Of a stretch of DNA of 39,866 nt, positions 24,261 through 26,941 are shown in pieces. The position numbers and the translations under genes were made by a program. The stretch comes from Actinomycetota bacterium. GTDB taxonomy: Bacteria; Actinomycetota; Acidimicrobiia; IMCC26256; JACPCJ01. The stretch is from assembly GCA_016179865.1 (NCBI GenBank), contig JACPCJ010000071.1:1-39866 (forward strand), given 5' to 3'. Within the stretch, counting starts at the first letter, position 1. The number at the start of each line of letters is the position of its first letter. The notes below the pieces were generated by a model. It saw nothing but the letters and a program-made list of their open reading frames with translations, had not been told where the DNA came from and did not search any database.

Positions 24261-24947
24261 CTAAGGCTCGGATGCGAGAAATGGCTTGACCTCCGCCCAT
24301 GCCCGTGCCCCCTGTCCCGCCCGGTCGAGTGGCTCCCCGTGGGAGGGTGCCGTGAGCGGGACGACCGTCTCGGGGTCCACCATCCCGAGCTCGCTGCGGG
24401 CGATCTTGAGGATCCGCTCCGGCGACGACAGCTCGGCGGTCTGCAGGCGCAGCCGCTCGAACTCCTGCCGCTCCTCGTTGAGCTGCTTTTCGATCTGCTC
24501 CAGCCGGAACTGCGACTGGACGAGGAACGAGCTGAAGCCGACCAAGCCGAAGACCGCCACCACCGACACCAACCCCAGCACCGTCAGGGCGAGGCGGCGG
24601 GTGGCGGGTCGGGTGGAGAAAAGACGCGTGGCGACGGGTCGGCGGGCGGGAGCACGGCGAGCAGCGCGAGCGGGAGCCGCCCCGACTCGGGCCGGCGCCC
24701 GGCGAGCGGGGCGAGCGGGGGTTCGGACGCGGGAGGGCGCGGGGTTCCGCCGGGCCGGCGCGGGTGCGAGGGTTCGGGCGGGCGGGCGGACAACGCGTGT
24801 TCGTGTTCGGGCACCTGCGGATCGGGCCAGCACCCCGCTCTTTAGGGCGAGCGCCAGCGAGCCCGGGGACGGGCGCCCTGGCCGAGCCGGAGGCTTGGCC
24901 GCTCGGGCCCGGACTTCGCGGCGGGCGCGGACCTGGGCCGGCGTCAC
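24261..24947 (-). CDS. ftsL: FtsL-like divisome protein with long basic tail
   Basis: The gene is in the ftsL position between rsmH and ftsI. The 228-residue product has one membrane segment at residues 119-144, followed by a short coiled coil (about 145-175, FRLEQIEKQLNEERQEFERLRLQ) and the typical LSSPERILKIARSELGMVDPE segment of FtsL/DivIC proteins. The first 118 residues, cytoplasmic by topology, are almost only Arg, Pro, Ala, Thr and Gly and much longer than in E. coli FtsL; long basic tails are known in actinobacterial FtsL. ATG overlaps the rsmH stop (ATGA). FtsL, with FtsQ and FtsB/DivIC, activates FtsWI. Confidence 0.88.
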   Translation of the reverse strand: MTPAQVRARREVRARAAKPPARPGRPSPGSLALALKSGVLARSAGARTRTRVVRPPARTLAPAPARRNPAPSRVRTPARPARRAPARVGAAPARAARRAPARRPVATRLFSTRPATRRLALTVLGLVSVVAVFGLVGFSSFLVQSQFRLEQIEKQLNEERQEFERLRLQTAELSSPERILKIARSELGMVDPETVVPLTAPSHGEPLDRAGQGARAWAEVKPFLASEP

Positions 24948-25987
24948 CGCGCGCGCTCCTCGGAATCGAGCTTCTCAAGACCGCGGAGCCGCGCCGATTC
25001 GGCGCGGGGGTTCCGCTGTACCTCTTCGGGGCGGGGCCGGAGCGGGCGGCGGGTAAGCACCCGCGCCGCGCCACCGCGCACGGTCTCCTGGGTCGGCAAC
25101 CCCGGGGGGTGATGCCCACCGGTCGACCACGCTTCGAACCGACGCTTGACGATCCGATCTTCGAGGGAGTGGTACGACAGCACCGCCAGGCGGCCCCGCG
25201 GGCACAGGACGCGGAAGGCGGCGTCGAGACCGGCCTCGAGGCGGTCGAGTTCGTCGTTGACGGCGATGCGCAGGGCCTGGAACGTGCGCCGGGCGGGGTG
25301 GCCGCCGGTGCGACGGGCCGGGGCCGGAATGCCGGCCTTGACCGCCTCGACCAGCTCCCCCGTGGTCTGGAGCGGTCGGCGCCGAACGATCTGGCGGGCG
25401 ATGGCGCGGGCGAAGCGCTCCTCGCCGTACTGGCGGATGATGCGGGCCAACTCGCCCTCGGTCGCGTCGTTCACGAGGTCGGCGGCGGTGACGGGGGCGT
25501 TGGTGTCCATGCGCATGTCGAGGGGGGCGTCGTGCCGGTACGAGAAGCCGCGAGCCGGGTCGTCGAGCTGGGGACTGCTCACGCCGAGATCGAAGAGGAT
25601 GGCGACGACGACGGGTTCTTCGTGTCGGGCTGGTCCGCCTGCTGCTTCCATCTCGCCCCCCACCTCCGAGAGCAGGCCGGCAAGACGATCGAAGCCTTCG
25701 TGGGCCACGGTCGCCCGATCACCGAATCGCCTGAGGGCCCGGCGGGCGGCGGCGACAGCGGCCTCGTCTCGATCAAGGCCGAGAAGGGCCAGGTCGGGCC
25801 GGGCGGCCAGCAACTCCCCCGCGTGCCCCCCACCACCCACCGTGGCGTCCACGGCGAGTCCAGGGGGCACCGGCATCAGGAGTTCCACCACCTCCCGGAC
25901 CATCACCGGATCGTGGGCGAACCCTCCGCTGTCACCACTCACGGCCTGCTCACTGGCCTGTTCATCATTGGCTCGTGCGTGGCTCAT
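24944..25987 (-). CDS. rsmH: 16S rRNA (cytosine1402-N4)-methyltransferase
   Basis: RsmH (MraW) methylates N4 of C1402 in the 16S rRNA P-site using SAM. The 347-residue protein has HDPVMVREVVELL, the SAM-binding DATVGGGGHAGELL, LGLDRD, FDLGVSSPQLDDPARGFSYR, PLDMRMD, YGEERFARAIARQIV, FQALRIAVNDEL and the C-terminal LSYHSLEDRIVKRRF and RNPRAESARLR. An extra stretch at about 105-120 (Gly/Glu/Ala-rich) is a loop insertion. Start ATG 25987 has GGAAAG about ten bases upstream. The gene is preceded by a 261-base leader containing a strong branched RNA structure. Confidence 0.96.
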   Translation of the reverse strand: MSHARANDEQASEQAVSGDSGGFAHDPVMVREVVELLMPVPPGLAVDATVGGGGHAGELLAARPDLALLGLDRDEAAVAAARRALRRFGDRATVAHEGFDRLAGLLSEVGGEMEAAGGPARHEEPVVVAILFDLGVSSPQLDDPARGFSYRHDAPLDMRMDTNAPVTAADLVNDATEGELARIIRQYGEERFARAIARQIVRRRPLQTTGELVEAVKAGIPAPARRTGGHPARRTFQALRIAVNDELDRLEAGLDAAFRVLCPRGRLAVLSYHSLEDRIVKRRFEAWSTGGHHPPGLPTQETVRGGAARVLTRRPLRPRPEEVQRNPRAESARLRGLEKLDSEERAR

Positions 25988-26018
25988 GGGGTGCCCGCTT
26001 TCCGGTGATGCCTGCCTG

Positions 26019-26147
26019 CCACGAACCCCGTTCAGCCCCCCGCTCGGCGAAACGCCGTCCGGTTGTCTCTCCGGATCGACTCGGATGGAAGCGGGCGGAG
26101 TAGGGGCCTCCCACCGTGCCGACCGGGGGGCTGAACGGGGCTCGTGG
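26019..26147 (-). ncRNA. Structured leader RNA candidate upstream of rsmH
   Basis: Bases 26019-26042 and 26124-26147 are inverted repeats of 24 positions with one mismatch, which becomes a G-U pair on the transcribed (minus) strand. After one further unpaired position on each side, five more pairs follow (26044-26048 with 26118-26122). Between the arms, two smaller hairpins can form: 26097-26100 with 26108-26111, and TCCGG 26058-26062 with CCGGA 26071-26075. The result is a long closing stem with two branches, ending 31 bases before the rsmH ATG. No T-tract follows. A conserved actinobacterial mraW RNA motif is known in this position; whether this is that motif needs a covariance search. Confidence 0.6.
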
Positions 26148-26248
26148 ATCCCGTCCGCGCACCGGGTGCTCTTGTTTGCCGTCTGCTCCCTCGTCCTGCT
26201 CCTCTGTTCGTCCTGCCTGTCCCGTACCGGTTCGATTCCTCGCGCCCG

Positions 26249-26677
26249 TCACATCCCCAGTTCGGGGAGGTCGGCGCCCGAGGCAAGCTCGCTGTCGCCC
26301 TCGGCGCTGCGGGCCTGCCAATCGCGTGCATTCCAGATCTCGACGTGCGTGAAGGCGCCGGTCACGACGACCTCGCGGTCGAGGCCGGCGTACACGCGGA
26401 GGTTGTTCGGGATGGCCACCCGGCCCTGACGGTCGGGGGTCACTTCCGTGGCCCCGGCGAACAAGGATCGGGCTGCGGCCCGTTCCCGCTCGCCCCCCCG
26501 GGCCAGCTCTCGGGTGCGGCGCGCCACTTCCTCCCACTCGTCAGGGGGAAAGACGGCCAGGCACTGGTCGCGTCCCTTGGCGATCACCGCACCCTCCCCG
26601 ATGAGGTCACGGAACTTGACCGGGAGGATGACCCGACCCTTGTCGTCCAACGTGTGCTGAAACTCACCGAGAAACAT
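26249..26677 (-). CDS. mraZ: Transcriptional regulator MraZ
   Basis: MraZ is an AbrB-fold DNA-binding protein that represses its own dcw operon in several bacteria. From ATG 26677 it has 142 residues, the normal length, with the two half-repeats: MFLGEFQHTLDDKGRVILPVKFRD and EVTPDRQGRVAIPNNLRVYAGL, plus WEEVARR and VEIWNARDW. The frame remains open 53 codons upstream through the promoter and operator and has no MraZ homology. The promoter (26780-26808) and a ladder of GTGG boxes lie upstream, so autorepression is very likely. The gene is the first of the dcw cluster. Confidence 0.96.
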   Translation of the reverse strand: MFLGEFQHTLDDKGRVILPVKFRDLIGEGAVIAKGRDQCLAVFPPDEWEEVARRTRELARGGERERAAARSLFAGATEVTPDRQGRVAIPNNLRVYAGLDREVVVTGAFTHVEIWNARDWQARSAEGDSELASGADLPELGM

Positions 26678-26747
26678 GCTCCCTGCGCTCGCTCCCGCCT
26701 GACATTTCTCTTGGCCGTTCTGAAGGGCGGGCGGAGGGCCGCGACTC

Positions 26748-26831
26748 CCACTGACCCCCACCGCTCTCCACTTCGGTCCACCATACGCCACCATTCGCCA
26801 CCCGTCAACACCGATCCCCTCCACTCCCCAC
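26748..26831 (-). promoter_or_regulatory. MraZ operator: GTGG boxes every 10 bp
   Basis: On the minus strand six GTGG boxes start at 26801, 26791, 26781, 26771, 26761 and 26751, exactly 10 bases apart. Three more positions in phase continue the ladder upstream: GTGT at 26811, GAGG at 26821 and GTGG at 26831. E. coli MraZ binds TGGGN repeats with 5-base spacers, that is also a 10-base period. The boxes run through the spacer and -10 of the mraZ promoter and into its leader. Confidence 0.8.
26780..26808 (-). promoter_or_regulatory. mraZ/dcw promoter
   Basis: TTGACG (26808-26803), a 17-base spacer and TATGGT (26785-26780) on the minus strand form a good sigma-70-type promoter. The start would be near 26773, giving a leader of about 95 bases to the mraZ ATG. 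Two GTGG boxes fall in the spacer and one overlaps the -10. Confidence 0.7.
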
Positions 26832-26941
26832 CACAAAATCGGGAGGAATACGCCGCAACGGGACCACCCCGAGCGCGCCGCGCCGAACTTGGGTTCTTTG
26901 TGACGGTCAGGCCGCGAGGAATCGGGCCAAGAATGCAGAGA

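Follow-up and report, generated by a model that had tools for sequence, protein, structure and literature searches.

A structured leader RNA occupying the gap between mraZ and rsmH was identified in the class Acidimicrobiia through analysis of a 39.9-kb stretch of DNA, referred to here as the window. From its covariation and its placement, the element is almost certainly a structured cis-acting RNA as such, and the balance of the evidence from sequence comparison leads us to favor a role for this class-specific RNA in controlling rsmH at the level of translation. The gene rsmH stands at the head of the dcw cluster, a conserved group of division and cell-wall genes, and the base that its product methylates, C1402 of 16S rRNA, is located in the ribosomal P site. 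In the window, the mraZ–rsmH gap spans 261 nt and holds the structured leader, and rsmH is followed downstream by a DivIC/FtsL-like gene and a gene for an FtsI-type transpeptidase (Table 1). Upstream of mraZ, a sigma-70-like promoter is present (TTGACG-17-TATGGT, 26808–26780, − strand), around which many TGG/TGGGG repeats resembling MraZ operator boxes are found (26780–26840, − strand).

Table 1. Features of the mraZ–rsmH region in the window, with the evidence on which each assignment is based
Feature	Position	Strand	Evidence
Complete structured leader RNA, P1-P2-P3	26019..26147	−	MFE fold, covariance model R1, class-wide presence
P1 5′ arm, CCACGAGCCCCGUUCAGCCCCCCGGUCGGC	26118..26147	−	Inverted repeat and helix map; covariation
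P1 3′ arm, GCCGAGCGGGGGGCUGAACGGGGUUCGUGG	26019..26048	−	Inverted repeat and helix map; start-codon register of relatives
P2 hairpin, stems 26114–26116/26082–26084 and 26106–26111/26087–26092, 13-nt loop 26093–26105	26082..26116	−	Pairs covary in relatives
ACUCCGCCCG, near-invariant, candidate recognition element	26092..26101	−	Class alignment; 16S comparison
CUCCGCCC, core of ACUCCGCCCG	26093–26100	−	Class alignment
P3 hairpin, stem 26071–26080/26054–26062, loop 26063–26070	26054..26080	−	Helix map, covariation; missing from several class lineages
rsmH (mraW), 16S rRNA C1402 N4-methyltransferase	24944..25987	−	Pfam PF01795, E = 1.2e-104
mraZ, same strand and cluster, upstream of rsmH	26249..26677	−	Pfam PF02381, E = 2.9e-35

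No well-matched inverted repeat in the window is longer than the one made by the arms of P1 (30 nt, 93% complementary, 69 nt apart), which form 29 pairs with one interruption (24 + 5 bp). A preliminary description of this DNA had reported two 24-base arms whose single mismatch becomes a G-U pair on the transcribed strand, followed by five extra pairs beyond one mismatch; both observations are confirmed by the helix map, with G26141-U26025 as the sole non-Watson-Crick pair within the outer 24. Regarding the two interior hairpins proposed in that description, the one placed at 26058–26075 exists and corresponds to P3, but its extent was drawn too narrowly (26054–26080), and the one placed at 26097–26111 (GGAG/CUCC) represents a local alternative within P2, for which comparative evidence favors the pairing at 26082–26116. 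The transcribed-strand fold of positions 26010–26155 (146 nt) has a minimum free energy of −93.3 kcal/mol (z = −7.2), a value equaled by none of 200 shuffles. A covariance model termed R1 scores the window 114 bits at 26023–26145, the window itself being among the 35 sequences from which the model was built. Pairing between the P2 and P3 loops (CUCC with GGAG) is feasible, and both sides are nearly invariant; lineages without P3 nevertheless keep the P2 loop.

The preliminary description had suggested covarying pairs in this gap of related genomes as a check, and covariation there is strong. When the leaders of 50 genomes were aligned, P1 was found to be kept, with 31 of the 35 predicted pairs changed on both sides. 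Across 35 sequences aligned on the three-way structure, 92.4% of cells were paired and 28 of 48 pairs displayed double changes, a result that was out of reach of all 500 shuffles and far above the slid controls. P1 exceeds 20 bp throughout the class, and toward its outer end it is the pairing that is maintained rather than the sequence. Among 90 sense-strand class sequences, G-U outnumbered A-C combinations by 191 to 80 in P1 and by 384 to 126 overall, a count that leans towards the structure since the alignment was fitted to it; the count was also redone on 104 rows, 14 of which are antisense matches to the same places. This excess of G-U over A-C is what would be expected of an RNA transcribed in the rsmH direction. 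Taken from these substitutions, the pattern indicates that the structure, comprising P1, P2, and usually P3, is under selection as RNA in the rsmH sense.

The distribution of the element follows that of a single locus. A blastn search with a 146-nt query retrieved it from 49 of 61 relatives, and R1, which recovers divergent loci held out of model building, matched 193 of the 296 class genomes searched (148 of 209 when only good genomes are counted) and nothing outside the class in a phylum-wide sample of 247 genomes. All 40 divergent-family loci lie between mraZ and rsmH. Across approximately 85,000 species genomes, the 19-nt loop string GCCCCTACTCCGCCCGCTT was present in at least 119 genome records, with all listed matches falling in the mraZ–rsmH gap, and the named records are mostly Acidimicrobiia MAGs, which makes Acidimicrobiia very probably the class concerned. 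The other actinobacterial classes sampled display mostly a short mraZ–rsmH gap or an overlap and no such loop hairpin, and the plasmid collection searched contained no match to the element. Judged by these placements, the element belongs to rsmH only. In five class members that lack the leader (L360, L361, and L363–L365), mraZ and rsmH overlap or almost touch. Assemblies also tend to break in or beside the hairpin: two contigs of one genome (G024, contigs C290 and C169; loci L035/L030) begin inside it and overlap there, and a contig of another (G056; locus L033) begins 58 bases before its rsmH match. Given these breaks, the element is probably under-counted.

The relationship between P1 and the rsmH start points to the step that may be controlled. 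With the start called as the first plausible in-frame RsmH start having a Shine-Dalgarno sequence, the start codon falls within the P1 3′ arm in 25 of the 40 loci L126–L165, which lie outside the taxonomic order of the window, and in one locus inside that order (L075). Of the 25 in-arm starts, 24 occupy an identical position (−6) relative to the element, and the G-rich Shine-Dalgarno sequence roughly 6 nt upstream of the start in those loci is the P1 G-run itself (GGGGGG, GGGAGG, or GAGGAG). With ribosome-binding site and start codon both within the P1 3′ arm, a closed P1 would hide the two together. With many relatives using this arm as the ribosome-binding site, initiation of rsmH translation is the likely target; any effect on the downstream cluster as a whole would be speculative. 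The preliminary description had proposed a cis-regulator that decides how much of the dcw cluster downstream of mraZ is made; the cis-acting RNA is upheld by the covariation, and the likely level of control is sharpened here to rsmH translation initiation.

Members of the window's own order depart from this arrangement in that the start has moved some 15–140 nt downstream and has its own Shine-Dalgarno sequence in most cases, with P1 and the loop kept. In the window itself, the rsmH start lies outside P1, either 31 nt (ATG) or about 76 nt (GTG) downstream. The distance of 31 nt to the ATG at 25987 had been given correctly in the earlier account, but this codon is doubtful as the true start; the GTG at 25942 (residue 16, VSGDSGGFAHDPVM...) may be used instead. 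The GTG is favored because the proteins of relatives have a few residues ahead of the H-x-P-V motif, as an N-terminus at the GTG would give; the ATG is disfavored because no clear Shine-Dalgarno sequence precedes it. The start outside P1 in the window's own order and the existence of class genomes without the leader both count against cis-control of rsmH translation.

A mechanism that would accommodate these features is one in which the leader RNA in the mraZ–rsmH gap sets the amount of RsmH translated. In many class members, the closed P1 would conceal the rsmH ribosome-binding site and start codon, and a factor recognizing the P2 loop would shift P1 between a closed and a usable state. In the window's order, the RNA would act beside, rather than within, the initiation region. 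The stability of P1 counts against so simple a model, as it is hard to see how P1 opens.

No part of the element is better conserved than the P2 loop. It survives the loss of P3 in lineages that also retain P1, which makes it the likely recognition element. Its core, CUCCGCCC, occurs in 86 of 90 class members, with CUCCACCC in three and CUUCGCCC in one, the 90 rows having been picked by these loop patterns after one motif-free check; some lineages have CCACCCG, CCGCCCU, or CCGCCCA, a variation that counts against the preferred explanation. In P3-less loci (L126–L130, L132, L133, L157–L160, L164, and L165), a mostly unpaired (G)CCAGCG is conserved between P2 and the P1 3′ arm; GCCAGC also occurs in the 530-loop region of 16S rRNA, and it is short enough for chance.

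The factor acting on the loop could be RsmH itself, which would give feedback control of the enzyme. RsmH is the favored candidate ligand in view of a likeness between the loop and the C1402 region that the enzyme targets in rRNA: ACUCCGCCCG matches 16S positions 1396–1405 (ACACCGCCCG) at 9 of 10 positions, and this interval is the single best site for the 10-mer in the 16S rRNA of four class members. The string GTACACACCGCCCGTC is found exactly in the 16S rRNA of eight relatives. In 16S rRNA (h44), a C-G helix pair can directly follow at G1405, as it can at the counterpart of this base in the leader. With the 10-mer, 0.4% of shuffled loops match equally well at C1402; the figure is 10.6% with the invariant 8-mer and 20–50% when the full 13-nt loop is used. 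The choice of the 10-mer was made once the match had been seen, and p varies between 0.004 and 0.5 according to the stretch. Base composition accounts for part of the resemblance, and following this shuffle control, the rRNA match was withdrawn as decisive evidence. A copy of CTCCGCCCGC in the mraZ leader of the window (26727–26736) was set aside as not conserved, given that CTCCGCCC was found in one of 51 mraZ leaders, the window's own, and in none of the 50 others; this near absence from mraZ leaders speaks for the preferred explanation. RsmH is reported to require assembled 30S subunits, not naked 16S rRNA (PMC5053481, PMC6821322), which counts against RsmH as the ligand, and METTL15, a human relative of RsmH, displays RNA binding with little sequence preference (PMC10828496). 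Class-wide autoregulation of RsmH through a loop imitating 16S 1396–1405 and a stem hiding the rsmH ribosome-binding site is proposed here as a tentative and somewhat doubtful step.

Translational control could instead be exerted through another ligand, for which ribosomal proteins, factors that assemble the 30S decoding site, and the 30S subunit are candidates. This alternative, which is also unlikely yet deserves serious consideration, is compatible with the translation-level part of the preferred explanation and competes with it at the ligand step. It draws on the same anatomy, namely the structure and the ribosome-binding site in P1, and a different binder might just as well be the one for which the loop mimics the h44 top. 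The location of the element at rsmH, essentially one place per genome, fits autogenous control better.

RNase III processing is the main mechanistic rival to translational control. The GC-rich P1 duplex would be cut, separating the mraZ from the rsmH mRNA or freeing the rsmH ribosome-binding site, and the loop would be conserved on account of a tertiary contact within the RNA or of a factor involved in processing. A P1 of such length across the class, with an outer part maintained by pairing, would suit this enzyme, and the downstream start found in the window's order would tolerate cleavage. In Corynebacterium, RNA-seq 5′ ends fall within the analogous mraW motif or close to it, though they were read as transcription starts (PMC3890552, PMC5784534). 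Processing leaves unexplained, however, why all lineages keep a near-invariant 8–10 nt loop and why the start codon occupies one set place within P1, and we consider it improbable.

An RNA has been described for this genomic position, namely, the mraW motif (RF01746; Weinberg et al. 2010, PMC2864571), whose function is stated as unknown (PMC5640933). It was the only described RNA for the mraZ–rsmH position that our literature search returned. Like the present element, it lies between mraZ and rsmH in actinobacteria and has a long closing stem. The mraW loop UACUUCCCC and the loop of the element, UACUCCGCC, have in common a C-rich, pyrimidine-rich apical loop with a UACUYC(G/C)CC-like core, features that would be expected if the element were a divergent member of the RF01746 family. 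The two differ in several respects: mraW loci of the phylum carry a CUUCCCC loop where the element has CUCCGCCC, their starts lie outside the stem whereas those of many element members lie inside it, and the three-way junction with P3 seen in many members is not a feature of the mraW motif, which is known from Actinomycetales and not from Acidimicrobiia.

The preliminary description had entertained identity with the Rfam mraW family, with a novel element as the alternative. The RF01746 model gave no match in the window at the gathering threshold (50 bits), none at E ≤ 10 within 25950–26300, and none above the cut-off in the 61 relatives. Conversely, R1 returned only weak or antisense matches at mraW loci L080–L088, with a best sense-strand E-value of 0.64. 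The whole of Rfam, searched with the window at gathering and permissive thresholds, yielded nothing beyond microRNA models, to which any long stem scores well, and ten relatives gave nothing of note. With RF01746 and R1 failing to recognize each other's loci and no Rfam family matching, the reading as a novel element is better supported than identity with mraW, and divergent membership in RF01746 strikes us as rather unlikely. A 35-bit RF01746-like match in one genome (G031, contig C210; locus L076, 1501–1603) was rejected, as it lies away from rsmH between two unrelated genes, which we read as ligase-like and membrane-protein genes; its hairpin is probably terminator-like.

A long inverted repeat with a short interior could also belong to a MITE/REP-like mobile palindrome or to an intrinsic terminator, readings of negligible probability. 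The mobile unit, which the preliminary description had named as an outcome that would refute its proposal, is itself refuted by a single copy in its own genome and an invariably orthologous placement at rsmH with no visible flanking duplication. The terminator is opposed by the lack of a U-run after the stem and of any − strand terminator call there.

Translational autoregulation of a 16S methyltransferase gene, sgm, was reportedly described by Kojic et al. in 1996 (J Bacteriol 178:5493), and a CCGCCC string common to its leader and 16S rRNA is said to have been proposed. As an autoregulated 16S rRNA methyltransferase acting at G1405, three bases from C1402, Sgm offers a precedent in kind; the difference is that sgm is a resistance gene encoding a different enzyme family and has no class-wide structured leader. 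Ribosomal-protein leaders that imitate rRNA have been described as well (PMC7247131). If the RsmH hypothesis is right, the present leader would resemble those of S15, L20, S4, and others in imitating an rRNA site and hiding a ribosome-binding site, although those leaders precede genes for ribosomal proteins, whereas rsmH encodes an rRNA-modifying enzyme that is a candidate binder only.

Why the dcw cluster should have an rRNA methylase at its head, and how that enzyme is controlled, are questions to which the element contributes a well-conserved, probable control point and a concrete candidate for the ligand. If RsmH does bind, a copy of its target would govern the output of a housekeeping enzyme of rRNA modification, and the mraW motif might be viewed in the same light. 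Such control, if true, would tie the maturation of ribosomes to the opening step of the cluster of cell-division genes.
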